From: Selaginella tamariscina
Lineage: Eukaryota; Streptophyta; Lycopodiopsida; Selaginellales; Selaginellaceae
Assembly: GCA_003024785.1 (NCBI GenBank)
Contig: PUQB01000059.1
Coordinates: 441,853 to 505,852 of the forward strand
Reading direction: 5' to 3'
DNA length: 64,000 nt
Positions 3,578 to 63,382 of the stretch are shown here, piece by piece (position 1 is the first letter of the stretch; each line of letters opens with the position of its first letter). The notes beneath the pieces were generated by a model. That model made no database searches. It had not been told where the DNA came from and saw nothing but the letters and a program-made list of their open reading frames with translations. Position numbers and translations under genes: made by a program.

Positions 3578-5348
3578 TGTCATAGTTTTACTATGACTCG
3601 ACCCTTTACTTTGGACGTTGACTGTTGTTACCTACTGTACTATGTTGATAAGCCCTAGGTGTAGAAGAAACAGGCCCGCTTAGTGCACTTGGATATCTAG
3701 TGATGGTCCGGCCGGGTGTCATTAGGTATTTGCAAGAAACTCTGGGCGAAGCTAGCACTTCCATCTAGAAAACTCTTACCTTGGTTTTCGTGTCCCGGTT
3801 GGATTAATGGCTAGTTCCGGTGAGTTCGGCATGTCGGATATGCTTAGAAATACCCCCAGGTTTGACAGGTTAGGGTTTAGGGGTCGATGGATAACTCACC
3901 AAGTATGTTCCCTCTGGGAATGAGATTTCAGTGCTAGCCCACTTATGTAAACAGGAAAACAGGGGGGGGGGGCTCTGTCACATAAATAAGGTAGTATATA
4001 GGAGTGAGGGTTCCTGGGTTCATGACTGAGCTCGTTACTCTTCCCGGTGCAAGCTCTAGCTTGTGTCGTCAAGGCACAACCCTCTGTTGTGCCGCCCTAA
4101 CTTCCAGATGCCAGGGGTACGTCCCACCTTCGGGGTAGCTTACCCTTAACGTTGGCGAATCCATGCCTGGGAGGTCTTGTCGGAATGCACGTTCCAAGAG
4201 GCAGAGGTTGAGGCTTGTCTCCAGCCTCCTCCTCCACGTCAAGCTAGGTGTAGCACTCACGGCCAAGCAAGGCACATCCGTGTCCTTGTCCAACTGTGCG
4301 TGGGATCTTGTTTGACAGGTTCACGTTACTGGTTCCTGAGGGTTCATTGAGGGGTTCTAGAGTTGGCATTTAGGAGCCACGTTTGTGGCACTTGGTGCAA
4401 CTCTTGAATCTAAGGGCTATGGCATGATAGCCCACATCGGGGAAGGCAGTGTCACATGGAGATGTGACACTGGGCTAAACGTCACATGGTACAACGCCTG
4501 AGGCACGCCCTTTGGGGTTATGTCATGGGCTTGTCGCCAAGGGGTTGGATACTTAGCAAACAGACATGCTTGTGCTTGCACTAGGGTGCTAAGCCTTGGG
4601 CATCCGCTCAAGGGAGGTTAGGTCTCATAACTAGGTGTGCTTTGGCACACTTGGCTAGGGGAGTGTTCTCCTTGGAATTCAAGGGTTGAACAACCTAACA
4701 TGTTAGCAGAGCCCTTTCGTGAGGCACTCGCAAGGTCATGTGCTTAGGGTTATCCCAAACCTAGCCTTAGGGAGTTTGCTTAGCAGAACACTCGTGTCCG
4801 CCTACGGCGCACACTCGTGTCCTCACTAAGTACTAGCCCTAGGTCTAGGGTATAACTTGGCCACTCAAACCCTTAGGGGTTAGTCGTGGTTCAGGGTACC
4901 CCTTGTCGCCCTAAAGGGGTTGTACTCCCGGATGAGGGTGATTCCTCAAGGGGTAAGTGACGATGCCTTAGCTCTGTCAGGGGTATGTGTGGAACACACG
5001 TCTCCTTGATGGGGGTTAGGGCATGAGCCTGTCTAGGTCTTCTAGGGCAAGACCCTAAGTCAACTAGGGTTATCCCTCAAGGGTTTTGGGGGTAGACACT
5101 CTAGGGAGACTTAGGCTAAACCCTAAGTCAACTAGGGTTATCCCTCAAGGGTTCTGGGGGCAGACATTCTAGGGAGACTTAGGCTAAACCCTAAGTCTCC
5201 TGTCCACTTGGGCATTAGAGTCTAACCCTAGGGGTCGTTGGGGTTGTTCTGGGAAACTTAGCGTTGCTCACACAGGGTGATGACGCCGAATGGCCACCTG
5301 GCAGCCACGTGTTGCCACGTGTTGGCCCTTTGGGTTAAAACTCTGACA
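3578..5348 (+). repeat. 5' LTR of copy A
   Basis: Begins TGTCATAG and ends CTCTGACA. It opens with a 7-bp inverted repeat (GTCATAG/CTATGAC) that could form a hairpin. It is rich in CCCTAA/CCCTAG-like motifs. It is about 67 bp longer than its 3' partner because of a 68-bp tandem duplication at 5053-5188. Confidence 0.92.
5053..5188 (+). repeat. 68-bp tandem duplication inside the 5' LTR
   Basis: Two adjacent units each start CCCTAAGTCAACTAGGG (5053 and 5121). The 3' LTR of the same element and the LTRs at 54.9-63.4 kb have a single unit here. The duplication therefore arose after, or during, this insertion. Confidence 0.85.
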
Positions 5349-8998: not shown

Positions 8999-10702
8999 TG
9001 TCATAGTTTTTACTATGACTCGACCCTTTACTTTGGACGTTGATTGTTGTTACCTACTGTACTATGTTGATAAGCCCTAGGTGTAGAAGAAACAGGCCCG
9101 CTTAGTGCACTTGGATATCTAGTGATGGTCCGGCCGGGTGTCATTAGGTATTTGCAAGAAACTCTGGGCGAAGCTAGCACTTCCATCTAGAAAACTCTTA
9201 CCTTGGTTTTCCGTGTCCCGGTTGGATTAATGGCTAGTTCCAGTGAGTTCGGCATGTCGGATATGCTTAGAAATACCCCCAGTTTGACAGGTTAGGGTTT
9301 AGGGGTCGATGGATAACTCACCAAGTATGTTCCCTCTGGGAATGAGAATTCAGTGCTAGCCCACTTATGTAAACAGGAAAACAGGGGGGGGGGCCTCTGT
9401 CACATAAATAAGGAGTATATAGGAGTGAGGGTTCCTGGGTTCATGACTGAGCTCGTTACTCTTCTCCCGGTGCAAGCTCTAGCTTGTGTCGTCAAGGCAC
9501 AACCCTCTGTTGTGCCGCCCTAACTTCCAGATGCCAGGGGTACGTCCCACCTTCGGGGTAGCTTACCCTTAACGTTGGCGAATCCATGCCTGGGAGGTCT
9601 TGTCGGAATGCACGTTCCAAGAGGCAGAGGTTGAGGCTTGTCTCCAGCCTCCTCCTCCACGTCAAGCTAGGTGTAGCACTCACGGCCAAGCAAGGCACAT
9701 CCGTGTCCTTGTCCAACTGTGGGTGGGATCTTGTTTGACAGGTTCATGTTACTTGGTTCCTGAGGGTTCATTGAGGGGTTCTAGAGTTGGCATTTAGGAG
9801 CCACGTTTGTGGCACTTGGTGCAACTCTTGAATCTAAGGGCTATGGCATGATAGCCCACATCGGGAAGGCAGTGTCACATGGAGATGTGACACTGGGCTA
9901 AACGTCACATGGTACAACGCCTGAGGCACGCCCTTTGGGGTTATGTCATGGGCTTGTCGCCAAGGGGTTGGATACTTTAGCAAACAGACATGCTTGTGCT
10001 TGCACTAGGGTGCTAAGCCTTGGGCATCCGCTCAAGGGAGGTTAGGTCTCATAACTAGGTGTGCTTTGGCACACTTGGCTAGGGGAGTGTTCTCCTTGGA
10101 ATTCAAGGGTTGAACAACCTAAACATGTTAGCAGGAGCCCTTTCGTGAGGCACTCGCAAGGTCATGTGCTTAGGGTTATCCCAAACCTAGCCTTAGGGAG
10201 TTTGCTTAAGAACACTCGTGTCCGCCTACGCGCACACTCGTGTCCTCACTAAGTACTAGCCCTAGGTCTAGGGTATAACTTGGCCACTCAAACCCTTAGG
10301 GGTTAGTCGTGGTTCAGGGTACCCCTTGTCCCCTAAAGGGGTTGTACTCCCGGATGAGGGTGATTCCTCAAGGGGTAAGTGACGATGCCTTAGCTCTGTC
10401 CAGGGGTATGTGTGGAACACACGTCTCCTTGATGGGGGTTAGGGCATGAGCCTGTCTAGGTCTTCTAGGGCAAGACCCTAAGTCAACTAGGGTTATCCCT
10501 CAAGGGTTTTGGGGGCAGACACTCTAGGGAGACTTAGGCTAAACCCTAAGTCTCCTGTCCACTTGGGCATTAGAGTCTAACCCTAGGGGTCGTTGGGGTT
10601 GTTCTGGGAAACTTAGTGTTGCTCACACAAGGTGATAACGCCGAATGGCCACTGGCAGCCATGTATTGCCACGTGTTGGCCCTTTGGGTTAAAACTTTGA
10701 CA
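8999..10702 (+). repeat. 3' LTR of copy A
   Basis: Starts TGTCATAG and ends CTTTGACA, followed by the CTAGG target duplication. Nearly identical to the 5' LTR apart from the missing 68-bp repeat unit and scattered one-base indels in homopolymers. Confidence 0.92.
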
Positions 10703-13217: not shown

Positions 13218-14619
13218 ATGGAGCCGGAGAAGCATGAGCTGCTCAGGGCCATGAAGACGCCTGAACGTAAGTTGTTTTTAATGCTGTAATTTTGATCCGT
13301 CTGACTGAATCTGCTGTGACAGTGTTGGAGCATTTAAAGTAGGCAAGAAAAAGAAATGGCGAATTACAGACCCTGCAGAAATTGCTCCAAACTACTATCA
13401 CGAGGATCTCTTCACTGCCAACTTCCCTTTAGTGTCAGTGAAGAAATATTATGCTGGACAAGCTTTTCCAATTACAGACAAGTTCAAAGGCCAAGTTCTC
13501 GATTTTCGACAGGACCAAAACAGCACGATCCCTTTGGAATGACAGGTTGATGGATGTTGTATCTGTGTACAAAACGCCTGCGAATGAAACACAGGCATTT
13601 CCTCATCATCTTGCACTTGTCGAAGGGATTGTACAGTTCACCATGCCAGGTCCAGAACTCATCGACATGGTGGAGAAACTTAGGAAGCGTAAACGGGCAG
13701 CTCAAGAATTCGAAGGATCTGCAGAAGCAGTTACAATGGAGGATGTGGATGAAGAAAGCTACAATGGCTTATGGATAGCTGCGGTTGAAGAGGATCAAGT
13801 AGCAGTTCTGACATCTCAGAATGAAGACGAAGGAGGACAGATTTTTCCAGAAGGGTCAGTGGATCTCATTGGCGTTTTACAGGAGCATGAGGGTGTTCCA
13901 ACAGGTTTTACCGATGCTCTGATTTCCGTGCATGACAAGGGCCTCTTCTACGAGCAGCCAAAAGGCAAAAGATTGAAGCAGGAGGCATCCGAGAACTTAC
14001 TGAAAAGCTCCAGTCGGTTAACATTCAAACAGAGCGGGTTGCTGCTGTTCTTGAACGGAAGTTTGCAGAAGACAACTCCAAGTCAGACGCACCGTTTCAA
14101 GGTTGTTTCTACGCAGTTAAGCATGCAGTGGTGAACATCCAAAACGGCCATGGGACTCCGGTATATGTGATTGTCATGACATCACATAAGTGGTGTTACG
14201 GTGTCCTTGTGCCTGAAGGATTTGTCCGGGTTCAAGATGGTGACATTGATACTCGGTCCATGGTCGCTTTTAAGGAGCATCAGGAGATCACTGGGATTGC
14301 AGACCACAATCTCAAGACTTTGCAAGAGAAGTTATCTGCTGGCACAGAGTTCTACCAAAAGAATTTCCGAGACAACCCTCATGCCAAGTACAGGAACGGC
14401 CCAATGCTGGTAGGAACCTTCTACCTGCGAGACGAGTGGTTTTCCCTTCCCACTACTGAGCATGGTGGGTTTGGTACTGATGGAGCGCTACGATTGTTCG
14501 ACGGCCTGATGAGGGTAGCTCTTGGCGATTCTGTGCTGAAGATGACTGCTGAGGATCTTGCGAAGCGAGTTGAATTGAGGCTCAGGCTAAAAGAAGAGCT
14601 GAAGAGTGATGTGTCATAG
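13218..14619 (+). CDS. Unrecognised gene, ~450 residues, with two apparent frameshifts
   Basis: Exon 1 (13218-13266) starts at an ATG just after a TTTAGGG motif and ends at a GTAAGT donor. A likely intron ends at AAAGTAG (13342). Coding signal then runs in three blocks: frame 1 (13343-~13540, including VKKYYAGQAFPITDKFKG), frame 2 (~13540-13960, with a basic LRKRKR motif and an acidic stretch) and frame 1 again (~13980-14619, ending LRLKEELKSDVS). Each block is open, balanced in composition and meaningful only in its frame, so this looks like one protein broken by two single-base indels. The C-terminal block has a long charged helix at its end. I recognise no domain. An RNA polymerase I A49-type subunit was considered but is not supported. 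It could be a real host gene with assembly errors, a young pseudogene or a transposon-borne gene. Confidence 0.55.
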
Positions 14620-28282: not shown

Positions 28283-31200
28283 TATCATGTATGTATATAT
28301 AATTATGTGTATACCTATTTGTCTGTGGATGTAACCACACACTCTCTCTCACACACACGCACATGCACACACAAACTCACTGTTGTCCATTTGTTGCCAC
28401 ATGCATCGGGTGAAGTCCACGGTAACTCGTGTTTGTAGAGAGTGTTCCCTTGTGAGCTGTAGATGGCTCTATCAAATGAACGTGATAATCTGCTAGTTCC
28501 ACTTGTTTAAGTTGTGGATAATGCGTTTCTAATGCACTCCTGCATGGATTAAAACAATAATTATTGTGTTAATAGTCATTATTCACTTTATAGAACTATA
28601 AACAGACCGTAAAGCGTGGCTTAGAGCATCAACTGGTCCAATACCTTCTGCTGCACTTACCTGAAAAGTTCGACAATCAAACAAAATCCACACAGACACT
28701 ATGGAATGACCATATAGAATCTCTTGGTATATTATGTGCATATATATAACGCACCAATCGATATATATATTTATAATTGCATGTATGAACTTACTTGACT
28801 TTTACCACCAACAGAAAGTTTAACCATGGCTTGATTAACTTGACTATCACTTCCACACCACGCAAGCCAGTTATCATCCTGGTTTCTATTCTCGTTGTCA
28901 CGTGGCACTCCACGGTTACTGGAAAGCACGGTAAACTCCAACACTCGAAACCTGCATTATCGATGTAATTAACAACGTGATTAAGATAATCATAACATTA
29001 TAAGATAATACTGTATTAAGATAGTGATTTCAATAATACAATATTGTAATTAAACCTTACGGTTGTTTGTAACGCTTCCCCTTTCTCACAATGAGCATGT
29101 CTACCGAGGCACCAGCATTTTCAAATGCACAACCCTACAATATATATTGTCAAAAGTTCAATAAATTTTTTGTTACTGTTACTAACATGGGAACATATAA
29201 TCCCAGTATAAATATATTATACACATAAATCTCTCTCTCTCTCTCTCATACACACACATGTAAATATATAATGTACATACCTCCCTCTCCATACGTTTTA
29301 TATGTGCAAGCACACTCCCAGCAACGTCCTTATCCAAAACGAGACCTGCCCTTTCTGCCTGTATGTAAATGAACAATAAGCAAATCAACATGTACATGCA
29401 TAATTATACGTGTGTGTATGATATAGTATAGTTTTACATACCTTATCAAGTATATTGCCTTTGCCAGAAAGCTCACTAACTACTGAGTGCATAGCGTTCC
29501 CAACGATAGTAGGATCCATATGATTGTAGCTTTCAGGCATCTGTAGAAGTAGTACATAGTGTAGTATGCTTAAATAATATTTAAATACTATAATAAATAA
29601 TGATAATAATATACACACACATACATAATTATGTACCTTTCGAATAGCAGCAACATGTATACCACCTTTATGTGCAAATGCTGCTGATCCAACATAAGCT
29701 TGTGTTGGTAAAAGTGGCTGTTTTGTAATCTCTGCCACTGTGTATGATAAATTGCAGAGTTTTGCTAATGACTCTGGGGGTATGCATTTAACACCAAGTT
29801 TAACTTGTAAACCTCCAATCACACTTATCTGGAAAATATAATCCGCTTAATGTCACAAAAATGTTATAATTAACAAGTTCATAATAATAACTTCACACAC
29901 ACACACAAGACAGTAATATGCAGTTTTTACACTAATTTCGTTAAGTAATAAACCGTATGCCGACCATTGTTATGTGAATATATTTACAGCTTTTTTTATT
30001 TGATAGTAATAAGAAATAGTATTATTATTGTAATATCGTACCAGATTTGCATTTCCCGTACGCTCTCCGTATCCATTAACACAGCCTTGAACAACAGATG
30101 CGCCACCTCTTACAGCTGCTAAAGAATTTGCAACTGCGAGCTCCGTATCGTTGTGTGTATGTATGCCTATCTGTACATGTGGCCATGGCCTAATCTCTTC
30201 TTTAACAGTTCTTGTCACTTCCTATATTATTCAATTAGTTAAGTAACAAACAAAACGTTATACATTGCTATAATAATCTATATAACAAAGTTTAGGAAAG
30301 AAATATGAGCTAATATATTATATTAAAACTATTACTAATTGCATCGTACATGTTAATATATACCTTATGTTGTATATAATATGTACTCATATACGTAATT
30401 TATATGACTATTCTTATATTACCTCGACTATCCAAGGCATGGTACCTCCATTGGTATCACAGAGCACAACAACATCCACTCCTGCTTTTGCAGCTGCTTT
30501 TAGACATTCCAGGAATATTCTCTATGAAACATCATCCTTAGCGCAATTTTATATAGGTATGTTTGAATCAAAATGCATATGTTTATATTCGACTGTACAT
30601 ATCGTACTAGTGGTTTTAGTCACACACAGACACACAAATGCATACGTACTCGTTAGCAGCAAAACCGTCAAAGAAATGCTCAGCATCTAGCATTACCTCC
30701 TTACTTCGAATCTGTCACCGTTCTTATAAAAGAAAATTAAAAGATAAAATGAAGAATATATTAAGGAAAACAAAGAAAACTCTAGGAAAATAAAAACGAC
30801 TATTACCTTGAAATAAGAAACAGACTCAGAAATCATGTTTAAGTTTTCCTCCAGTGTTGTTTCTAATACTCTATGAACCTGTGCATCCCAAGCCTAAAAT
30901 ACCAAAAGCAGTCTTAAGCAGATATAAGTAACTAATGAATACTACTATAGATTTTGAAATGAACCTTTGCTACTAGTGTAATGACATCGGCCTCACTTGA
31001 CAGTAAAGCTTGCAAGTTTGCATCCTGTATTGGAATAAACAAACAATAAATAATGGGAATTCAGAAGCTCTGAATTAAAATAAGCCTATTATATAAATCA
31101 TCAGTATAAATGTATGTGCATGAATATATACGCCAACTAAGAACTCTCTCTCTCTCTCTCTCTCCGTACGTGTACCTTGTGTATGTGTGTGTGTGATAAT

Positions 31201-40129: not shown

Positions 40130-40351
40130 CAGTATATATATATCCATACATGTTAGTGATATATAAATAATGCTTATCCATTTTAGATTAAAAAAATCAT
40201 ATAACTTATTGACTGATTTTGAACATGAGTCTTTCTTTTGAAGTATATTTTTCTTAAAGATTTTAGAATCATAAGTACTTTAATCTAACACAAGTACAAT
40301 ACAAAAAATGCAAGCACACAGTATAATATATGTGTGTGTGCTGTTGTCATG
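40130..40351. other. Short AT-rich spacer before the transposon end
   Basis: AT-rich sequence with no coding features between the aldo-keto reductase remnant and the left end of the DNA transposon. Confidence 0.6.
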
Positions 40352-40555
40352 GGGCACGGCGAAATTCGAGCGGAGGTCAACGAGCTTGACCTAGATTTCC
40401 GAATATTCTTGAATATTCCGTTGTTCCGTACGATTTGTCTAGATATCCTCGAATATTCTGTACGGAAATTTTTCGTACTGCCAAGTGTACACACAATTGG
40501 ACCTTCCAAAATTTTCAAGAATATTCTAGAAATTCTAGTGCGGCGGCCGCATACA
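40352..40555 (+). repeat. Left terminal inverted repeat
   Basis: Starts GGGGCACGG, then TTCGAGCG, CGAGC, GATTTCCG, TGAATATTCC, TTCCGTAC, and further in AGAATATTCT and GTGCGGCGG. Several GAATATTC palindromes are spaced through it and could be transposase sites. Confidence 0.7.
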
Positions 40556-40707
40556 AAATATGGTAGTATATTTTTGTTGTATTTAAAGAAATATATGTTA
40601 AATTACTTAAAAATATGCTAAATAAAATTACCATTAAAATTTATATTGAAAATTAAGTTTGAAATAACAAATATAAAACCGAAGCTGTTGAAAACAAACC
40701 AAACACA

Positions 40708-43700
40708 CTAAATAGATGGTGGAGGATGGAGGTTCCTTGGTAGCATCAATAAAGAACTTAGTTCACGGGGTGCAAGTGTACGACGTTGCAAATGCTTGAC
40801 AACTCGAGGATCAGCTCCCAGTACACGCTTGTAAACAAAATACATATGTTTGCAAGGCACCCACTGACGACCATTGCAGAACTCCGAGCATGAACAAGAT
40901 GGTGCGCTACAAATGACAACCCAAGCAGATGTATGGTCGTTGTCACATACTCTGAAGCGAATGCATGTTGGAGGATCAACCACGTCAACTTCTGCGACAT
41001 ATGCTCCCAACGTCAAACATGCTTCAAAACTTACCTGTTGTTTCTTAGACATCCCTAAAGGTGTTCTTGTTGCACGACCACTTGCAGGAACAGGAGGTCC
41101 ACGAAATTGTGCAGGGGGTGTTGAAAATCCAGTGACTCCAACAGGAACTGAAGGAACATGAGGTGTTGAAAAACCTGGCACTCCTGCATGAGCTGAAGGA
41201 AGCCCAGCTAGCATAAAACCTGATCTTGCCAGATCATTGATCTCCATTGCTATCAGCTTCGTGCCCACTTGAACTTTCCAAACCGAGGTAGAAGCTGGCG
41301 GAGAAACAATAGTTGGTCTTGGATGTCTGTTGCAAAGCATGTTTGTTGGACAAAAAACATCATTTGTGAGCGAAAGCATTCTTCACCAGTTTCTTTGTCA
41401 TTGTATCTGATCCTTCCAAAAAAACAAGGAGCAGCCACTCGATTACCACTAGGACTGATCTTTTTGTCACAAGCACTCCACTGACCTCCTGAAGAGGGAA
41501 AGCCTGCCAGACATTTCACAGAACTTCTTTCACCACATCTTCTAATCGCCCATTGTCCAGGTGTAACATCTTGTTCTTCAACCAGAACATATTCTTCATG
41601 TTCTTCTGCAAGTTGAAAATCCAATCGTCGCTTCCGTCTACACTGTGTTGGAATAACCTGTTCACTATAGAAGATGTCCGGTCGGTGGGATCGTTCAGCC
41701 TCTGACCCCATATTTCTTTGCACAGTGCGATGTTCAACATTCGTGGCAGCCACAAAAGCAGTATCCTGCATGCTTGATGGAGCAACATCTTCAACTAAGT
41801 CGATGATAACCTTTGCTGTAGGTGTTGTTGAGTTAGCATTTGACATTCTTCTCTCGAACCTTGCTGAGAGCTCCTCTGAAGTCGGCCCGGAACCACTATA
41901 CCTTCCATCTCTAAAAGCCTTCACAAGAGCACATTGTCGCACTGATTCAGTCAGGTCGTGGATTGTAGCTTGGTACAATGAAATGTATTTTGAATCTCTA
42001 GCCCTCCTCCATCTTCCGTGAACAGACTCCGACTGGTTTGTCATGGGCACAACCCTTGCAGCATTCTCCGGCATGCTTTCAAGAACAACATTTGAAATAT
42101 GATTCTTCTGTCTTTCCCACCATGAAAACCACGTCTGCATAACTCCAACATCCTTCACATTTTCATTCCAAAAGCGGAAAAGATTATTTTCAATTTCTTC
42201 ACGATCAGTTGTTGATGTGGCTGTTGGCCATGATCTCAAAAGTTGAAGATGTTGTTGTTGATGTTCAAGAGGGACCCACTTCCTTGTCACACGTTGTATG
42301 GCTTGTTCATAGTGAAAGATACAGCTCCGTTCACGTCCAGGAATTTCTTGGCCATTAAAGAACACATTCCTAATTGCTTGCCAGATCGCTCCTGCTTCAT
42401 CGGACATAAACCCAGCGAACTGCACATTGTAGATTCCCTTCTCGGAACAGACATCCAACATAGCACGAAAAAACTTCTCCACAGCTCCAGCCGTTTGTCT
42501 CTTCATGTCACCATAAGCAATGGTGGATAATCGGCGCACACTATAAAATAATCAAAGAGTTAAGCAAACAACAAAAAGATAACATCTTACTTTGGGTCGT
42601 AAACATGCAATGCCAGAGTGATCCACTTATCAACAACACGGTGTGTGTGATCAAGTAGAACCCAACTCTTCTGCAAAGGGCCAAGAGGAGGTTGGCACAT
42701 CCTTACATAATCGATTCCAGAACCTGGCCCTGAAACCGTCATCTTAAAAACTAATGCCTGGTCGTCTGAACCACGGAAATTCATCCCAGGATAGTGAATC
42801 ACGTGGATGAATGGGATAGACAACCTTCGTTTCAGCTCCAATAATCCATCAATATTCTCTGGCATTTCAGCAGCAGTTCTCTTTGCGGACGCTACCCATT
42901 GACGAACTCTGCATCAAAGGTATTATCAAAGAATGCTCAGCACAAAGTAAAACTCTAATTGTACCTTCGATTGTTTGATAATGGTTGCAAATGATCCATG
43001 AGCTTATCCCAACTTCCAGGCTCAGAATTATCTAATAGAAAACCAAAGATAGCATCTTTACATGCTGCCATTTCGATGACTCTTGGACTAGCTCTGGGAG
43101 TTCTTTCTGTTGCATTCTGGACCGCCATATGCATTTCTTCTTTGTTCGATGCAGAAACACCATCACCCACTGGATGTGAATGTTTTCCCTGGTGGATAAA
43201 CAATCTAGTCTTGGTTATGTCGTCTGGGAAAACGCAAAACGCCACAGCATGACAAACTTCAAGGCACAATGGATTTTCTTTACAGAAAAAACATGTCAAT
43301 CCTTTTGCCAGTTTGTCGATTGAAGGTGGGGAAACAATACATCCTTTCCATTTAGTGCAGTTCGGAAATCCTGCCTTAGAAGCAGGGCAGTCCGGGTTGA
43401 TACAGCAAAGGCTCCCAACACATTTGCTCCTGGACACCCTCGCTTGAAAATTCCAGTTGCTGGTCGTTCCTGCTGTCCAGGTATGTCCATCCTCTTTCCG
43501 ATTCATTCCTTTGTATTTGTATTCGGAAGGAGGGAGCTCAAAAATGACATCCCCATCATACGCAATAGGCAATTCATTTGTATGAATGATCGTGGAACCC
43601 TCGATAAGAATTCTTCCCTTTTTGCAGGTATTAGAAGTGAAAAGGTTCTTCAACGTTGAGTATTCAGAGTCAGAAGCAACGACAAGCTTAAACAATGGTC

Positions 43701-43926
43701 CTTCATCCGGTAACAAAACATATCCTGGATTATCCTTCCCTCCAGCATCTTGGTCCTCGTTTATTTCGATCTGTAAAGCAGATTGCCCATGAAGAAGTTT
43801 AAAAAGACGAACACTTTGCCAATCAAAAATGCCAAAGAACGTTCTAATCTGATTAGTAAGAATGATTCCAACACCATCTATCACAGGAACATCGTGATCC
43901 AAATTGCCGTAAACAATCCTGGCCAT
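40708..43926 (-). CDS. Mutator-like (MULE) transposase with SWIM zinc finger
   Basis: Three exons: 43926-42965, 42908-42591 and 42540-40708, about 1,037 residues. I chose the ATG at 43926 (MARIVYGNLDHD). Residues ~165-255 hold a Cys/His cluster (CVGSLCCINPDC..C..C, then HSHPVG), resembling the WRKY/GCM1-type DNA-binding fingers of MULEs. The DDE-type core follows: a first Asp in LLDHTHRVVDKW (~410), a second in GFMSDEAGAIWQAI (~472) and a candidate Glu near WWERQKNH. Near residue 975 a SWIM finger reads CSCSEFCNGRQWVPCKHMYF. Around 41260-41380 two frames overlap: coding signal passes from FVQQTCFATDIQDQ in one to KVQVGTKLIAMEIN in the other, so a single-base indel or a frameshift joins them. 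Otherwise open, suggesting recent activity. Confidence 0.82.
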
Positions 43927-44599
43927 TTTGCAAGCAGTTACCACAAACGTGACAGAAAAACAGCATTACTTAATCATCTTTTGGTAAATATCGGATATTA
44001 CCATTTCAAAAATTCACAATCATGACTCAACGTGGGCGAATATTTAATTCAAGGAAACGTATAGATCTTAGATGCTAATATAGTATAGCACTTCACGTAG
44101 AGATAGAGCAATCTTTATTGTCTTTTAAATAAATGTGTGTCTAATCTACATTCATCTGACATATTTATTTATGACTTGTTTATATTCTGTTAATTTATTT
44201 ATTATAATTATATAGTTATTTGATCCAGTATTTTATCAAATGTAGATGTTGATTAATACTTGCTCCGCTACCAATTGTCAATTATAAATACATATTTTTA
44301 CACGAATATTTATTTAATTATATAATAATATGTTTTTTTAACATACAAATTTTTACTTAAATATGTGTTTGTATTTGTATCCTTTTATATAGTATGTTAT
44401 TTATCGTAAGTATTATATATACTGTTGTATGGTTTAATTAAACACAGTTTTATAGTTAAGGGTCAAAGGGTTAAGTGTTAGATTTTAGGGTAAAGGTTCA
44501 GGACTACCCATTCTTCTTCTCCATTCTCCATTGTTGAGAGAGGGCACTTTTGTTCTTTTTTTTGCGGCGACAAGAGGCTAGTGTGAGCGTCACGGCGAC
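43927..44599. promoter_or_regulatory. Shared divergent promoter region of the transposon
   Basis: About 670 bp of AT-rich DNA separates the start codons or leaders of the two oppositely transcribed genes. A GGGTTAAG/TTTTAGGG stretch lies near 44460-44500. This arrangement would allow joint expression. No start site can be placed. Confidence 0.5.
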
Positions 44600-44730
44600 A
44601 TGGCTACAGGTAAAATCTTATATATGTGTATAGTAATTTCTGTGAATGTATGTGCAAATTCAGTAGGATTTCTTTGTATTCACAAACGCACGCGCGTGTG
44701 CACACACACACACACCTCCGACGCATGAGT

Positions 44731-44823
44731 TATTGCCGATTTCGGCAAACACACACACACACACACACATTTCCTGCCAATTCGGGCAGGAAATCCGTGT
44801 TGTGTGTGTGTGTGTGTGTGTGT
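44731..44823. repeat. Two nested-style hairpins in the leader intron
   Basis: TTGCCGA-TTT-CGGCAA at 44731-44746 and ATTTCCTGCC-AATTCG-GGCAGGAAAT at about 44769-44794 are perfect inverted repeats. The second is flanked by an outer (CA)n arm on the left and a (GT)n arm on the right, which extend the stem. Confidence 0.8.
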
Positions 44824-44938
44824 TTTTGCGCACACACATAAATAACATTTTACACACGTATGATTATACAACATTAGACTTGTATACATGTGTGTGTGTA
44901 TATAAATAAATATATTTAAATACATACTTAAAAAGACT

Positions 44939-44965
<27 letters not shown>
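44939..44965. repeat. (TA)n microsatellite
   Basis: About 13 TA units in the leader intron. Confidence 0.9.
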
Positions 44966-44977
<12 letters not shown>

Positions 44978-45306
44978 AAGTATATGAATTTAAGACTTGT
45001 ATATATGAGATGATGCTTTTTCGTCTGTATATACATGTGAAGAGATATGAATATACCCATATTCTCTCACACAGACACATCACAAAACACAAACAACATT
45101 GCACACACACACACATAATCAACATTACACACATACACAAGGAACATTATATAGTGAGCACACACACAAACAACATTACACGTATAAATATGTGTGTGTG
45201 TGCGTGTGTGTCTATATATATTGATAGGTATACATATATAGTAAATGTGTGTCCATAAATTAAAACAACTCACACACACACACTTATCAGTTGTTGTAAT
45301 TGCAGA

Positions 45307-48300
45307 ATGAGACAAAGGCAGAGTAAGAGACTACGAGATAAATACAAGACTTTGACACTTCAAGAACATATCGTCCAAGAAGCTCTTGCAGATATGGCTC
45401 CAAAACCTCGTGGCAAGAAAGGAGGCCGAGGCGCCAAGCAACAACTGCAACACAAAGAGATGCCGACGAACAATGAACCTGTGGATAGTTCGCAAGTCAT
45501 TGATGAACATACTGTGGTGAGTGAATGGATGCCTAGAAATAGGGAGATTGCAGGAAGCTCTGCAGAACACGGTAATGCAGAGGAAGTACCGGATATTGAT
45601 CTTGGTAGTAAAATGTTCAATAAGAAGAGGAAACTGGATGCTCCTGAGGATGTTGCCGAATCATATGCAATTCCGGAGCGGCTGACACTTGAGGCTCCAT
45701 CCAAGCTTCTTCGGGATCTTGTTATTCGGTATGACACAGATATTGACACATCGCTACAAGGACGAGACCACTACGTTCCAGTTGAGCTTGGTGAGCCTCC
45801 GCGTATCCCGGTTCACAGGTTGCTCCCACACCAACGTTTGAGGAATGTCACTAAGGACGGCGTGAAAGACCTTGTTGGATGGATTAGAGCTGAAGGATTT
45901 TACCAGGAGACGTCAGTGTTCACCTTATCTTTCGGACCACAGCTGAGTGCAGACGAACGCCGAAGTTGGAATGAGTCAGAAGCACAGGTCGATAGAGAGT
46001 TTGAAGCGGATTTGCATAAGCCAGCATTTTCTGCATGGTATCGATTTCTGAAAGATGCAAAGTTTCTGGTGTGGGATGGGAATCATCGTCGGGTTGCTTT
46101 GAACACTTTGCTTGCTGAAGAGCCAGGTTTGAAATGGACTTTGCGTGTACGTGCAACACTCATAGCATCCACAGTGCAAGAGGAGAAGAGACTAATCGCT
46201 GCTTGCAATCGGTTGAATGAGTAAGTGACTTGTTTGTTTCATTATTTAAATACTAAATAAATGTTGTTTTGTTTTGCAGAGCAACTGCTCGTGTGGTTCC
46301 TACAACAATCATTCACACCTTGCAGTTCTTACGGAATTGTTGTGTGAAGTCTGCAGATCTTTCTACCGATCATGTTCTTCGCGGGATGCCGGAGGAAGAT
46401 AGAAAAGCTGTGGAAGTGTGGAGATCGAACAGAAAAGAAGACGTTTGGTACGAGTATCCAAAGACGACATTGGTGAAGATTTTTTGGGAGGTAATCTTTT
46501 CTTCTTCTTTTGACTGTTTTTTGATTTTCGGTTTCTTTTGCAGAATCAACTGAAGCGACAAATCGCTACAAAACTTGCGAACAGAAAACCAAACCAGACA
46601 GAATCTCAGATCCTCTCCAGCGTTTACAAGACATTCACAGTTCGGATGAACAAATTCCTCACCATTGCTGATCCGGCGGTCGGTGAAGATTGGTTCAAGG
46701 CGATCACAGATATCACTATCAAACCATCAACGAAGCAAATAACTCTGGAGAAGCTTCAAATGCTCGCGAAGTCCCAGCTTCCTTCCAACGTCAAGGTTGA
46801 TATCCTTGGAAAGCTTGTGCACATTCAAGAACGTGGCGTTCTTGAGAAGCTGGTGAACATGACGGAGAAAGACAAGAAGGAAGGTGTCACCGGCTGGCCT
46901 GACAAGGACTTCATCAAGTTTTTGCACATCTTTACTTACTGGTTCCAGGTAATTTAATATTTATATTTTTCATTTTTATTCGTTTTATCGTGCCAGGTCG
47001 CGAGGCAGCTAAAGAGCTTTTGGTCGAGCATGTAGAGGAGTTCATGACATGGTATATGAAGATGCACAATGAAATTAAGTTGGATATGTACCAGAACATG
47101 CTCGAGAACAAGGAGTTCGGTGCGACAATTCCACCTCCTCGACTATTTGAGCTGGAAAAATCTGCAAAAAGAATGGCATTCAGGCAAGTTTTTTTTTTGT
47201 TTCTTTACAGATTTTTATCTATTTTTACAGGTTTTTAAAATGGAAGAACGATGCACTCCCTGAAGATTTCAAAGAGTGGATGGATGTTACCAAGGATTCT
47301 AGCATGTGGAGCCGGTTGTTACGTGATATCAGTGATTACGAAGTGGAACACTGTCCTTTCTGGCTGGATTTCCTTCCTGGTGACTGTCCCGAATGGGAGA
47401 TGGCCAGCTATAAGATACACAAGGATGATCGGCGAGAGCTATTATGGAAGAACGACAATGCTGCAAGGAAGCTCCATGTGAAGATGGATATCAGGTATGC
47501 TAGATCGGCGAGCAAGGTCAGCAAGGGACAAGCTTCTTCTTCAGCCCCATCCTTCATCTCGGCTGGATTGGAAGAAGATGATATGTTGAGGATGGTGATG
47601 CCTGAGAAGGGAAATGGAAGCTGGGAAATCATTCATGCAGATTCAGAGAACCTTGCAGTCCAGTACTTCAAAGCCGGAAGGCCTTTTCCGTCAGGATTGA
47701 AGGAGCTTGAGGATTGGATCGTGAGTCACAAGTCAAGTTGGACTATTCATGTGTTTGGTGCGAAGCCTCCACCAAAATGCATCCAGGGAGCTGTTGATCT
47801 CGTTGTCATCGACCCGCCTACCGGATGCGTTGCTGAGGCAGGCGGGATGGTGGATCAATACACGAAGTTCTCGGATGCTTTGCTGAAGAACTTGGTGAAC
47901 CTTGCTTTCGGGATATTAGACAGAGCTGGCCATGTGGTAGTGTTTGTGCTACCGGATGATGTTCTAGCTTTGAAGAACACTGCAGAAACTTGCAAGCTAA
48001 AGTTTCTGCAGATGAGTTATGTGCACACGACAAAGTCATGGGGATACCGTTTCTCTAGAAAGGTAATTCTTCTTTTTGAGAATGTCATTTTTTAATGTTT
48101 ATTTTTTCAGGAAAGCATCATTGCCATGTGTATTTTTGGTTCCCCCTACTCTAAGGTTGCCAAGAACAAGGAGATCTTGGACACTCGCTACACTCTTCTT
48201 TTTGATGAGCCAGAAGATTTCCAGCTCCCATGGTATAATGTTGTTTGTTATTTCTCATGTTCTAATATTGTAACTTTCAGGATTTCAATTGGCCCGAAAT

Positions 48301-48935
48301 CTCCCAAGTTGTTTGCGATGCTAGTGGAGAAGCTCACAAAGCCTGGTGGAACTGTTGTGGATCTAACAGTGGGAACCGGTGCTAGTATTCTTGCAGCTTT
48401 TCACACAGGGAGACATGGTTATGGAATCGACATCAACAAGGATCTGGTTTTAGCAGCCAGAGATGTCTTCAGGAAGGTCATTCCAAGTGTTACAGCAGCT
48501 GAAGGTGGTGGGGATGATCAAGTTGTTTCCATGATTACTCCTTTTGATGAGTGGAAGAGGGCCATGGAAACAGAAGCACAGGATTTGCCTTTGGCTAGCG
48601 ACAACGATGGAGACCAGGATCCGCCTTCTCGAAACGACAAGGATGTTGTTACGGAGAAGTCCGTGGAGCACAACGACGAGTCATCAGATGAGTCAGCAGA
48701 AGAGAGATCATACGAGTCATCAGATGATGAGTGAGATTTGTTTTATCATTTCTTTGGTTTTAAACTTTAATATGTTTTCAGTATTGTTCTACCAGACTAC
48801 GCTAATCAGATGGCAAAGAAAATGGTTGAAGAGTTCGAAGTTTACGACAGACAGATTTTGGAGAAACGTTCACGACACCGTAACAATGCATTCATTAACG
48901 ACGAGGCACTGGCTGGTGGAAACGAGTCTTCATGA
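45307..48935 (+). CDS. ParB-like domain fused to beta-class N4-C/N6-A DNA methyltransferase
   Basis: Eight exons: 45307-46220, 46280-46490, 46544-46948, 46997-47183, 47231-48062, 48111-48232, 48281-48730, 48782-48935, ~1,091 residues. The basic N-terminus (MRQRQSKRLRDK, KPRGKKGGRGAK) could serve nuclear import. Residues ~155-305 form a ParB-like domain (IPVHRLLPHQRL, GWIRAEGFYQET, FLVWDGNHRRVALN). A helical middle region follows. The methyltransferase has catalytic motif IV, VDLVVIDPPTG (~765), before the S-adenosylmethionine motif X/I, KPGGTVVDLTVGTGAS (~917): the beta-class order of amino methyltransferases. The usual DPPY/W is DPPT and DPFxGSG is DLTVGTG. An acidic Ser/Asp/Glu tail precedes the last exon. 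Intron 4 uses a GC donor (CAG|GCAAGT). The exon 3/4 join is off by one base, probably a lost G. ParB-methyltransferase pairs are typical of phages and mobile DNA in bacteria. Target base is unknown. Confidence 0.85.
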
Positions 48936-49119
48936 TTGAGTTATGTTTTTATTGTAATTTTTATTTAGTTTGATGCGGTATTTATATAAAAATATAATTA
49001 TAGTTATAAATATAAATATTAAAATAAAAACATAAATATAAATATAAAATATAAATATATATGTCAGATTAACCCCCAAATTTGTGAAACTTTGACACAT
49101 TACCGTGCCGCCATGATTG

Positions 49120-49237
49120 CCCGCCCGCCGCACCAGAATATTCTTTATATGAAAAAGAATTCTGTACGGAATGGAATATTCCGGTATGACGGAAATCCGT
49201 ACGCTCGGCAAACTGCGCTCGAGGAAATGTCAAACCC
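49120..49237 (-). repeat. Right terminal inverted repeat
   Basis: Read on the minus strand from 49237: GGGTTTGACATTTCC, TCGAGCG, CGAGCG, GATTTCCG, GGAATATTCC, TTCCGTAC, AGAATATTCT, GGTGCGGCGG. This parallels the left end at 40352. Confidence 0.7.
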
Positions 49238-49241
49238 TGTG

Positions 49242-54950: not shown

Positions 54951-56647
54951 TGTCAGAGTTTAACCCAAAGGGCCAACACGTGGCAACACGTGGCTGCCAG
55001 GTGGCCATTGGCGTCATCACCCTGTGTGAGCAACGCTAAGTTTCCCAGAACAACCCCAACGACCCCTAGGGTTAGACTCTAATGCCCAAGTGGACAAGAG
55101 ACTTAGGGTTTAGCCTAAGTCTCCCTAGAATGTCTGCCCCCAGAACCCTTGAGGGATAACCCTAGTTGACTTAGGGTCTTGCCCTAGAAGACCTAGACAG
55201 GCTCATGCCCTAACCCCATCAAGGAGACGTGTGTTCCACACATACCCCGTGACAGAGCTAAGGCATGTCACTTACCCCTTGAGGAATCACCCTCATCCGG
55301 GAGTACAACCCCTTTAGGGCGACAAGGGGTACCCTGAACCACGACTAACCCCTAAGGGTTTGAGTGGCCAAGTTTACCCTAGACCTAGGGCTAGTACTTA
55401 GTGAGGACACGAGTGTGCGCCGTAGGCGACACGAGTGTTCTGCTAAGCAAACTCCCTAAGGCTAGGTTTGGGATAACCCTAAGCACATGACCTTGCGAGT
55501 GCCTTACGAAAGGGCTTCTGCTAATGCTTAGGTTGTTCAACCCTGGATTCCAAGGAGAACACTCCCCTAGCCAAGTGTGCCAAAGCACACCTAGTTACGA
55601 GACCTAACCTCCCTGAGCGGATGCCCAAGGCTTAGCACCCTAGTGCAAGCACAAGCATGTTTGCTAAGTATCCAACCCCTTAGCGACAAGCCCATGACAT
55701 AACCCCAAAGGGCGTGCCTCGGCGTTGTACCATGTGACGTTTAGCCCAGTGTCACATCCCCATGTGACACTGCCTTCCAAGATGTGGGCTATCATGCCAT
55801 AGCCCTTAGATTCAAGAGTTGCACCAAGTACCACAAACGTGGTTCCTAAATGCCAACTCTAGAACCCCTCAATGAACCCTCAGGAACCAGGTAACGTGAA
55901 CCTGTCAAACAAGATCCCACGCCCACAGTTGGACAAGGACACGGATGTGCCTTGCTTGGCCGTGAGTGCTACACCTAGCTTGACGTGGAGGAGGAGGCTG
56001 GAGACAAGCCTCAACCTCTGCCTCTTGGAACGTGCATCCCGACAAGACCTCCCAGGCATGGATTCGCCAACGTTAAGGGTAAGCTACCCCGAAGGTGGGA
56101 CGTACCCCTGGCATCTGGAAGTTAGGGCGGCACAACAGAGGGTTGTACCTTAACGACACAAGCTGAAGCTTGCACCGGCAGAAGAGCAACGAACTCATTC
56201 ATGAACCCAGGAGCTCTCCTACATATACTCTACCTTATTTATGTGACGGAGCCCCCCCCCCCTCTTTTGTGTAAGTGGGCTGGCACTGAATTCTAGCCCC
56301 TTAGAGAAAATGATTGTCCAAACCTTAACCCTAAACCTAACCCGGGGGGGGGTTTAGGGCGTGGGTTAGGGCAACCCTAGGGTTAGGTCAACCCTAGGGG
56401 TTCCTAACCCTACTTGACAAGCTAACTTTGCAAAACCAACCTGGACGTCAAAACGGGGGGGTTTTCTAAAGGAAGTGCTAGCTTCGCTAGAGTTTCTGCA
56501 AATACCTAAGACACCCGGCCGGACCATACTAATACCCAAGTGCACTAAGCGGGCCTGTTTCTTCTACATCTAGGGTCGTCACATAATCCAGTAGGTAACA
56601 ACAGTCAACGTCCAAAGTAAAGAGGAGTCATAGTAAAAACTATGACA
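54951..56647 (-). repeat. 3' LTR of copy B
   Basis: Plus-strand reading starts TGTCAGAG and ends CTATGACA. It contains an AACCCTAGGGTTAGGTC-type block (about 56320-56420) that copy A's LTRs lack but the old fragment at 2.9-3.1 kb has. Confidence 0.92.
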
Positions 56648-60277: not shown

Positions 60278-61998
60278 TGTCAGAGTTTTAACCCAAAGGG
60301 CCAACACGTGGCAACACGTGGCTGCCAGGTGGCCATTCGGCGTCATCACCCTGTGTGAGCAACGCTAAGTTTCCCAGAACAACCCCAACGACCCCTAGGG
60401 TTAGACTCTAATGCCCAAGTGGACAAGAGACTTAGGGTTTAGCCTAAGTCTCCCTAGAATGTCTGCCCCCAGAACCCTTGAGGGATAACCCTAGTTGACT
60501 TAGGGTCTTGCCCTAGAAGACCTAGACAGGCTCATGCCCTAACCCCCATCAAGGAGACGTGTGTTCCACACATACCCCGTGACAGAGCTAAGGCGTCACT
60601 TACCCCTTGAGGAATCACCCTCATCCGGGAGTACAACCCCTTTAGGGCGACGGGTACCCTGAACCACGACTAACCCCTAAGGGTTTGAGTGGCCAAGTTA
60701 CCCTAGACCTAGGGCTAGTACTTAGTGAGGACACGAGTGTGCGCCGTAGGCGGACACGAGTGTTCTGCTAAGCAAACTCCCTAAGGCTAGGTTTGGATAA
60801 CCCTAAGCACATGACCTTGCGAGTGCCTCACGAAAGGGCTCTGCTAACATGCTTAGGTTGTTCAACCCTGAATTCCAAGGAGAACACTCCCCTAGCCAAG
60901 TGTGCCAAAGCACACCTAGTTATGAGACCTAACCTCCCTTGAGCGGATGCCCAAGGCTTAGCACCCTAGTGCAAGCACAAGCATGTCTATTTGCTAAGTA
61001 TCCAACCCCTTGGCGACAAGCCCATGACATAACCCCAAAGGGCGTGCCTCGGCGTTGTACCATGTGACGTTTAGCCCAGTGTCACATCCATGTGACACTG
61101 CCTTCCAGATGTGGGCTATCATGCCATAGCCCTTAGATTCAAGAGTTGCACCAAGTACCACAAACGTGGTTCCTAAATGCCAACTCTAGAACCCCTCAAT
61201 GAACCCTCAGAACCAGGTAACGTGAACCTGTCAAACAAGATCCCACGCCCACAGTTGGACAAGGACACGGATGTGCCTTGCTTGGCCGTGAGTGCTACAC
61301 CTAGCTTGACGTGGAGGAGGAGGCTGGAGACAAGCCTCAACCTCTGCCTCTTGGAACGTGCATTCCGACAAGACCTCCCAGGCATGGATTCGCCAACGTT
61401 AAGGGTAAGCTACCCCGAAGGTGGGACGTACCCCTGGCATCTGGAAGTTAGGGCGGCACAACAGAGGGTTGTACCTTAACGACACAAGCTAAAGCTTGCA
61501 CCGGCAGAAGAGCAACGAACTCATTCATGAACCCAGGAGCTCTCCTACATATACTCTACCTTATTTATGTGACGGAGCCCCCCCCCCCTTTCCTATATGA
61601 GTAAGTGGGCTGGCACTGAAATGCTAGCCCTTAGAGAAAATGAGTTGTCCAAACCTAACCCTAAACCTAACCCCTGGGGGGGTTTAGGACGTGGGGTTAG
61701 GGCAACCCTAGGGTTAGGTCAACCCTAGGGGTGTCCCTAACCCTTATTTTGACAAGCTATACTTTGCGAAAACCCCTAACCTGGAACGTCAAAACGGGGG
61801 AGAGTTTTCTAAATGGAAGTGCTAGCTTCGCCTAGAGTTTCTTGCAAATACCTAACGACACCCGGCCGGACCATCACTAGATACCCAAGTGCACTATGCG
61901 GGCCTATTTCTTCTACATCTAGGGTTCGTCACATAATCCAGTAGGTAACAATAGTCTACATCCAAAGTAAAAGAGGAGTCATAGTAAAAACTATGACA
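60278..61998 (-). repeat. 5' LTR of copy B
   Basis: Plus-strand reading starts TGTCAGAG and ends CTATGACA, next to CCAAG. Nearly identical to the LTR at 54951-56647, with indels mainly in runs of one base. Confidence 0.92.
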
Positions 61999-63382
61999 CC
62001 AAGTATGTTCCCTCTGGGAATGAGATTTCAGTGCTAGCCCACTTATGTAAATAGGAAAACAGGGGGGGCCTCTGTCACATAAATAAAGTAGTATATAGGA
62101 GTGAGGGTTCCTGGGTTCATGACTGAGCTCGTTACTCTTCTCCTGGTGCAAGCTCTAGCTTGTGTCATCAAGGCACAACCCTCTGTTGTGCCGCCCTAAC
62201 TTCCAGATGCCAGGGGTACGTCCCACCTTCGGGGTAGCTTACCCTTAACATTGGTGAATCCATGCCTGGGAGGTCTTGTCGGAATGTACGTTCCAAGAGG
62301 CAAAGGTTGAGGCTTGTCTCCAGCCTCCTCCTCCACGTCAAGCTAGGTGTAGCACTCACGGCCAAGCAAGGCACATCCGTGTCCTTGTCCAACTGTGGGC
62401 GTGGGATCTTGTTTGACAGGTTCACGTTACCTGGTTCCTGAGGGTTCATTAAGGGGTTCTAGAATTGGTATTTAGGAGCCACGTTTGTGGTACTTGGTGC
62501 AACTCTTGAATCTAAGGGCTATGGCATGATAGCCCACATCATGGAAGGCAGTGTCACATGGAGATGTGACACTGGGCTAGACGTCACACGATACAAAGCC
62601 TAAGGCATGCCCTTTGGGGTTGTGTCATGGGTTTATCGCCAAGGGGTTGGATACTCTAGCCAACATGCATGCTTGTGCTTGCACTAGGGTGCTAAGCCTT
62701 GGGCATCCGCTCAAGGAGGTTAGGTCTTATAACTAGGTGTGCTTTGCACACTTGGCTAGGGGAGTGTTCTCCTTGGAATTTAAGGGTTGAACAACCTAAA
62801 CATGTTAGCAGGAGCCCTTTCGTGAGGCACTCGCAAAGTCATGTGCTTAAGGTTATCCCAAACCTAGCATTAAGGAGTTTGCTTAGCAGAACACTCGTGT
62901 TTGCCTACAGCACACACTCGTTTCCTCACTAAGTATTAGCCCTAGGTCTAGGGTATGACTTGGCCACTCAAACCCTTAAGGGTTAGTCATGGTTTAGGTA
63001 CCCCTTGTCGCCCTAAAGGGTTGTAATCCCGGATGAGGGTGATTCCTCAAGGGGTAAGTGACGATGCCTTAGCTCTATCACGAGGGTATGTGTGGAACAC
63101 ACGTCTCCTTGATGGGGGTTAGGGCATGAGCCTGTCTAGGTCTTTTAGGGCAAGACCCTAAGTCAACTAGGGTTCTCCCTCAAGGGTTTTGGGGGTAGAC
63201 ATTCTAGGGAGACTTAGGCTAAACCCTAAAGTCTCCTGTCCACTTGGGCATTAAAGTCTAACCCTAGGGTCGTTGGGGTTGTTCTGGGAAACTTAGCGTT
63301 GCTCACACAGGGTGATGACGCCGAATGGCCACCTGGCAGCCACGTGTTGCCACGTGTTGGTCCTTTGGGTTAAAAACTGACA
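61999..63382 (+). repeat. Solo LTR C, right part
   Basis: Resumes at CCAAGTATGTTCCCTCTGGG, the exact continuation of the interrupted LTR. It ends AAAACTGACA and is followed by the TGTTA target duplication. Confidence 0.92.

Follow-up and report, generated by a model that had tools for sequence, protein, structure and literature searches.

A MULE-like transposon of Selaginella tamariscina with a ParB-like/amino-methyltransferase-like second gene and an altered catalytic motif

The window analysed here (64,000 nucleotides of Selaginella tamariscina contig PUQB01000059.1) contains a transposon with two genes between inverted ends; one encodes a MULE-like transposase, the other a ParB-like/amino-methyltransferase-like protein. 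This observation is confirmed, and the element is a young, high-copy plant DNA transposon. Its anatomy and the core status of the methyltransferase gene are very nearly certain. The catalytic motif of the methyltransferase is altered, and judging from this the protein may bind DNA instead of marking it. Overall, the best explanation, to which we give an even chance, is a plant MULE with a transposase and a non-writer DNA-binding fusion protein that helps the element.

The transposon occupies positions 40351..49237 (8887 bp, no strand assigned) and runs from GGGGCACGG to CAAACCC; its borders were placed from alignment breaks in fetched loci and from paired ends. When 20 genomic loci (L009-L028) were aligned to the window, the alignment ended within 49232-49241 on the right in all 20 and within 40344-40351 on the left in 13. 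In four others (L018, L020, L026, L028) the fetched piece ends before the left border, and three begin internally (L021 at 43667, L023 at 40375, L027 at 42006). On both sides these breaks agree with the boundaries 40352-49237 of an earlier sequence-only reading, and the matching inverted ends which it described around both genes are also found: the terminal inverted repeats are imperfect, about 100 bp long, and reach a local alignment score of 63, where the best of 300 shuffles scored 42. Element ends form 24 pairs spaced 8839-9052 bp apart. Among 40 scored genomic copies of the methyltransferase segment (window copy counted), 25 score as high as an identical copy would; at least 150 PF01555 matches lie above the cut-off (150 scored among 739 candidates, all of which pass). 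Plant-type genes (glycosyl hydrolase 17, bHLH) surround the element. The genome has a single match to the LEAFY profile (E 7.8e-38), against none in 14 control genomes, which fits a land plant; some streptophyte algae have LEAFY as well.

The MULE-like transposase gene (40708..43926, minus strand; exons 43926-42965, 42908-42591 and 42540-40708) encodes 1037 aa in open copies. Its frame is broken in the window copy and open in 4 of 21 copies. A short intron was considered as the cause of the frame change; since four other copies are open without such an intron, a frame break is likelier. Searched alone, a transposase segment matches PF10551 (E 0.0034, profile positions 2-96 of 99) and SWIM (0.76), both below cut-off, while a profile search with longer transposase proteins gave no MULE match. 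In 7 of the 14 copies for which both flanks could be compared, at least 8 exact bases are common to the two flanks (9 bp in five of them), against 2 of 182 mismatched flank pairs; a clear target duplication was not seen at the flanks of the window copy. The MULE assignment is based on these weak profile matches, the target duplications and what we take to be a D/D/CxxH/SWIM layout, which together bear out the earlier description as MULE-like; both a target-site duplication of 8-11 bp and terminal inverted repeats, as expected of MULEs, are present. We read the element as an autonomous-type plant MULE with two genes facing apart.

On the plus strand, the second gene (45307..48935) has eight exons (45307-46220, 46280-46490, 46544-46948, 47005-47183, 47231-48062, 48111-48232, 48281-48730 and 48782-48935), which read through to 1088 aa in the window copy. 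Its seven introns are 47-59 nt long, and each has GT or GC at its start and AG at its end in every one of 21 copies; the frame is open in 12 of 21. Between the divergent genes lies a 1.4-kb region with CA/TG microsatellites (43927..45306), presumed to be a two-way promoter. The N6_N4_Mtase profile PF01555, proposed earlier as a check, matches the plus-strand protein at 5.2e-8 (33.6 bits; cut-off 26.7), and the phage methyltransferase family phrog_67 matches its methyltransferase part at 7.3e-11. The order of the domain is permuted: the motif IV region (47780..48062, plus strand; VVIDPPTG, a non-canonical DPPT) precedes the SAM-binding motif I region (48281..48480, plus strand; VVDLTVGTG, PF01555 profile positions 165-219).

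The ParB-like (DGNHR) region lies at 45814..46220 on the plus strand (residues about 170-305). The DndB profile, which we take to be ParB-like, covers the WDGNHR segment at 4.4e-4, below cut-off; no ParB-named profile matched the plus-strand protein in the profile search, and among solved structures there were methyltransferase matches over motif I and no ParB match. The ParB label, which rests on the sub-threshold DndB match and the motif, is therefore a putative one. A ParB domain joined to a beta-class methyltransferase, head to head with the transposase, had been claimed for this gene; the methyltransferase and the orientation hold, and the ParB part is supported as a putative ParB-like region. 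We read the gene as a fusion of two bacterial-type domains, one ParB-like and one a beta-class (permuted) amino-methyltransferase-like domain.

A sister element in the same plant has a transposase 47% identical over 249 residues. It carries a ParB-like/methyltransferase gene where the arrangement of the window element predicts one, with 248 of 870 aligned residues identical; in the stretch read, five of five introns match the window gene in column and phase. The gene is thus an old, co-inherited second gene. The sequence-only reading had offered cargo or core, and the same gene in the sister family makes it a core component, not late cargo. A profile made from both families matches MboIIA at 3.2e-4; the sister's ParB-like region matched neither DndB nor ParB in profile and structure searches. 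Of 41 sister transposase matches, 30 have a listed PF01555 match 4.8-5.6 kb away on the opposite strand; the other 11 carry little weight, because PF01555 scoring covered 150 of 739 candidates.

Prokaryotic ParB-methylase genes are not known to contain introns. Prokaryotic contamination is ruled out by introns in both families, plant-type neighbours and the many genomic places of the element. Scans of prokaryote genomes, phages and viral contigs, which find mostly close relatives, yielded no relative that passed, whether the query was a single protein or the alignment of both families; a phage tblastn search with a relaxed limit turned up nothing but methylase pieces, none with E below 0.3.

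Selection on the gene was estimated with the observed mutation spectrum. Differences common to copies L030, L032 and L033 give an omega-like value of 0.38 (z 4.5), and L034 (0.36, z 3.9) and L031 (0.34, z 2.4) give similar ones; the value is 0.69 (z 2.8) for differences shared by L030 and L032, 0.72 (z 2.6) for L032 overall, 0.62 (z 3.6) for L033 overall and 0.91 for differences private to L033. L029 has too few changes (6 to 1). L030 and L032 have stops in common, so part of their common differences postdates the death of the ancestor copy; for this reason the estimate took the place of a simpler dN/dS-like count on the shared differences (0.39). Purifying selection is seen in part of the divergence that older copies have accumulated, with mixed results across copies.

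These results bear on what the second gene is for. Plant MULEs commonly capture cargo, and the gene might be a passenger without a role for the element, acquired by Pack-MULE-like capture. This is contradicted by its presence with the ends, by the sister family with its conserved introns and by the partial purifying selection: a methyltransferase match is listed at the fitting place for 37 of the best 40 left ends and for 40 of the best 40 right ends, so that, as the earlier reading required, other copies of the ends do hold the gene. We consider a passenger extremely improbable; Pack-MULEs are named in the available text of PMC12477816. An active amino-methyltransferase, steered to the ends by the ParB-like domain and writing 6mA or 4mC for transposition control or escape from silencing, fits the strong retention of the gene with the ends and in the sister, as well as the retained motif I and permuted order; self-modification is also proposed for algal elements in the accessible part of PMC12477816. 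Motif IV argues against it. This catalytic motif is normally (D/N/S)PP(Y/F/W); it reads DPPT in the window element, DLPN in the sister and DLPN in a third copy type. All three copy types read retain the D and the second P, but each has T or N in place of the aromatic residue. The motifs of known enzymes given in the available section of PMC8885841 (SPPY, DPPY, NPPY, DPPY/F, DPPW) include none with T or N. Since the catalytic motif departs from the normal form, the methyltransferase is not filed as an active writer; Thr or Asn at this position would not by itself prove inactivity, and an active writer appears unlikely. The earlier interpretation stands in its MULE, its gene pair and its core component, and the proposed writing of 6mA or 4mC is what motif IV speaks against.

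The protein could instead be a transposition cofactor, whose ParB-like nuclease/nucleotidase or clamp aids excision, end pairing or repair and whose methyltransferase-like part serves as a structural module that binds DNA. The strict retention of WDGNHR in both families read, the linkage of the gene to the transposase and the DNA-nicking ability of a ParB domain that is joined to an adenine methylase (PMC5512222, in the part available) are in its favour. We nevertheless regard it as improbable. MULE transposases usually work without such a partner. A DNA-binding helper or anti-silencing factor is favoured, and a non-writer DNA-binding helper comes close to an even chance.

Such a helper would bind the element's own DNA, and the GAATATTC palindromes in the element ends are its candidate sites. 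GAATATTC occurs nine times in the 64-kb window, where 1.45 are expected by chance over the whole window. Six lie within the element, all in terminal regions: four in the left terminal inverted repeat region (40351..40560, plus strand), at 40401, 40411, 40451 and 40519, and two in the right one (49061..49237, minus strand), at 49136 and 49174. In the sister piece, two copies downstream of the gene are the candidate binding sites (3 of 200 shuffles reach that number). GAATATTC may possibly be the transposase's own site. WDGNHR is identical in the window element and the sister, and the SAM motif is also retained; the SAM pocket and ParB-like domain would then serve binding or clamping and not base methylation. 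The protein might keep the ends or promoters active, or assist transposition, a role comparable to that of VANC, the second gene of Arabidopsis VANDAL elements. VANDAL elements are MULEs; to our knowledge, VANC is unrelated to the ParB-like/methyltransferase protein. A wider version is possible though doubtful: a plant MULE clade whose obligatory second gene came from a captured prokaryotic ParB-methyltransferase, lost base methylation and became a SAM-dependent, sequence-specific reader of its own clustered palindromes, acting as an anti-silencing or transposition switch.

C>T changes are in excess among the element copies, more strongly so at CpG (30 changes in 552 CpG bases versus 54 in 3111 other C/G bases). 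Because of this excess, the element probably does not simply escape 5mC silencing, contrary to the earlier suggestion; any anti-silencing by the element would be incomplete.

The wider question touched here is how DNA transposons cope with host DNA methylation. Plant transposons have kept a bacterial-type DNA-modification module through deep divergence and at high copy number, with its catalytic motif changed, which raises the question of whether a methyltransferase fold can be a reader or clamp and not a writer. The near-identical young copies make direct testing feasible with native long reads.

Among the matches listed in open-licence literature, only PMC12477816, in its available part, describes ParB-methyltransferases in eukaryotic transposons; it reports such genes in a brown alga and cites work on green and red algal transposons that carry them (Iyer 2011; Petroll 2025). 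Titles and abstract openings of the listed matches indicate none in a plant MULE. The idea of a transposon-encoded ParB-methyltransferase, supported here, was therefore already in print for algae; the plant MULE setting, the co-inheritance and the motif change look new. As in our element, the second gene of Sola1-1_Ec32 from Ectocarpus, going by its published description in the accessible text, lies opposite the transposase strand and encodes a ParB-like and 4mC/6mA-type methyltransferase protein (1104 aa). Sola1-1_Ec32 is a 21.5-kb Sola1 transposon of a brown alga, whereas the element described here is an 8.9-kb plant MULE known from two families with conserved introns and an altered motif IV.

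VANDAL elements with VANC, as presented in the available part of PMC5735166, likewise combine a plant DNA transposon with an additional gene and a short target motif that forms clusters in the element's non-coding parts. For VANC, anti-silencing is demonstrated; for the present element it is a proposal. The bdelloid rotifer N4CMT (PMC8885841, accessible text) is another permuted N6_N4_MTase that is found in a eukaryote and derives from bacteria. In contrast to the transposon-encoded protein, it is a host gene product with a chromodomain and an SPPY motif that acts on transposons. Bacterial and phage ParB-methylases share with the plant protein the fusion of ParB to an adenine methylase (PMC5512222, in the portion available), and the phage methyltransferase family phrog_67 resembles the methyltransferase part of the fusion.

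The ParB-like/methyltransferase gene is a core gene of the element, not cargo. Of 128 candidate left ends, the best-scoring 40 were compared with the listed methyltransferase matches: 37 have a correctly oriented one (6.5-8.0 kb away in 36 and 14.2 kb in one), and three (on contigs C1154, C838 and C1141) have none among those listed; all of the best 40 of 138 candidate right ends have such a match. Because these counts cover only the best 40 in each set, they may overlook derivatives that are shorter or older.

A second element family, found by transposase search (47% identical in an alignment of 249 residues; 41 rows, none with inner stops), bears on the same question. For this sister family, 4.2 kb was fetched where the same head-to-head arrangement would place the partner gene. 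A homologue is encoded there (tblastn 8.9e-50), in the orientation opposite to that of the transposase; the spliced protein is identical to the element protein at 248 of 870 aligned residues. All five sister introns in the stretch read share alignment columns and phases with those of the element gene, which has two more. For 30 of the 41 sister transposases, the listed PF01555 (N6_N4_Mtase) matches include one on the opposite strand at a distance of 4.8-5.6 kb. The sequence-only reading had proposed a cargo or core enzyme, and its core option was right.

Genome-wide, PF01555 yields 739 candidates; 150 were scored, and all of these are above cut-off. Further matches have other frame lengths (C1293:521691-521984, C565:331665-331829, C516:760708-760872, and on contigs C14 and C113); these suggest further methyltransferase-bearing element families.

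The whole element occupies window positions 40351-49237, based on where alignments stop in fetched loci. The assembly searched comprises 300.7 Mb in 1391 contigs, with the window at C937:441853-505852. It is from a plant, probably a land plant: a LEAFY profile matches it once (E 7.8e-38) and has no match in 14 control genomes, though some streptophyte algae have LEAFY too. A search with 1451 bases of the methyltransferase gene gives 151 candidates there; of the 40 scored, 25, counting the window copy, score as high as an identical copy would. Alignments of 20 fetched loci to the window end at 49232-49241 on the right in all 20 and at 40344-40351 on the left in 13; four other left ends are truncated where the fetched piece stops, and the alignments of L021, L023 and L027 start at more internal positions. 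Internal segments are missing from L011 and L014. With the microsatellite region left out, 13 of 21 copies carry 0-4 substitutions relative to the majority and the other eight carry 6-29; amplification is recent.

Target duplication was assessed in the 14 of 21 copies with both flanks. In seven of these, the two sides have 8 or more consecutive identical bases in common, versus 2 of 182 mismatched flank pairs; the shared run is exactly 9 bases in five of the seven (e.g. TCACTTATA, GAACTATAT, TAGTTTATA). The match is 6 bases in two copies and 5 or fewer in five, including the window copy. The ends are imperfect inverted repeats (score 63 vs a shuffle maximum of 42).

The observation of this transposon is confirmed, and its anatomy is as first described: head-to-head genes within inverted ends. 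The transposase (40708-43926, minus strand; 1037 aa, three exons) is readable in 4 of 21 copies, and its frame is broken in the window copy. Pfam support for a MULE assignment is weak (PF10551, 0.0034, below cut-off with the transposase segment searched alone; SWIM, 0.76). The ParB-like/methyltransferase gene (45307-48935, plus strand) has eight exons, with splice dinucleotides intact in all 21 copies; the frame is open in 12, and nine copies encode an identical protein. Introns are 47-59 nt in both genes and 52-60 nt in the sister gene; typical plant introns are far longer. The short introns may reflect past transfer from a short-intron lineage.

Elsewhere in the window, GH17 and bHLH genes lie near the element. 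A near-identical frame of ~83 aa (containing DKDTDVPCLAVSATPSLTWRRRLETSLNLCLLERAFRQDLPG) occurs five times (4072-4320, 9495-9743, 55863-56150, 61177-61476, 62171-62458) and is probably another repeat family. Two overlapping long open frames of 230 and 227 aa at 13442-14616 (plus strand) have no Pfam match and resemble a gene whose reading frame has been broken. An exon at 29973-30221 (minus strand) has an HMGL-like domain (PF00682, 2.2e-19); with adjoining minus-strand frames, it resembles a 2-isopropylmalate/citramalate synthase.

Selection was examined in six older copies (L029-L034) against the majority of six young copies, excluding gapped codons. Methyltransferase differences common to L030, L032 and L033 comprise 34 non-synonymous and 44 synonymous changes, where the same mutation spectrum would predict 25.6 synonymous (omega-like 0.38, z 4.5). 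Values are similar in L034 (0.36, z 3.9) and L031 (0.34, z 2.4); L029 has too few changes. The other comparisons are weaker or neutral: L033 gives 0.62 in all (z 3.6) and 0.91 for private differences (z 0.5); L032 gives 0.72 in all (z 2.6), 0.69 for changes shared with L030 (z 2.8) and 2.39 for private ones (12 to 2). For the transposase, the ratio is 0.28 in L034 (z 6.6), 0.80 in L032 in all (z 1.4), 0.75 for changes shared by L030 and L032 (z 0.8) and 1.09 for those private to L032. L030 and L032 have stops in common; therefore, both descend from one dead copy. We read this pattern of unpolarised shared differences as suggesting selection during the active life of the lineages and then neutral decay.

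The methyltransferase part has beta-class motif order and keeps the SAM-binding motif (LTVGTG; IGSGTG in the sister), and element and sister have the same WDGNHR in their ParB-like domains. The catalytic motif IV is DPPT in the element family, likewise in relics L030, L032 and L034, and DPPI in L033. It is DLPN in the sister and also in C111, a third type of copy, where the 241 bases read agree with the sister at 44 of 79 residues. The motifs of known enzymes in the excerpted text of PMC8885841 are SPPY, DPPY, NPPY, DPPY/F and DPPW, none ending in T or N. Judged from these motifs, catalysis is in doubt; the earlier proposal that the enzyme writes 6mA or 4mC is unproven, and the altered motif IV (DPPT, DLPN) speaks against it.

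Over the 21 copies with strands pooled, C>T changes number 84 vs 24 T>C. By context, 30 of the C>T changes are at CpG (552 bases) and 54 at the remaining C/G positions (3111 bases); the microsatellite stretch enters the base counts and is excluded from the change counts. This CpG-weighted excess looks like a footprint of 5-methylcytosine. The palindrome GAATATTC occurs nine times in the window vs a chance mean of 1.45; six are in the element, every one within ~175 bp of its ends, and the sister piece has two, 3' of the methyltransferase stop. This placement fits a candidate cis site for the transposase or the ParB-like/methyltransferase protein. VANDAL21 offers an analogy for such clustering: according to the excerpt of PMC5735166, its VANC21 protein binds a clustered 9-base motif and causes loss of DNA methylation.

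A ParB-methyltransferase on a eukaryotic transposon has been reported earlier in Ectocarpus, in the excerpted text of PMC12477816, which also cites cases from red and green algae. What is new, so far as the open-licence literature searched can tell, is the plant MULE context, a second family whose introns are shared, and the change in the catalytic motif.
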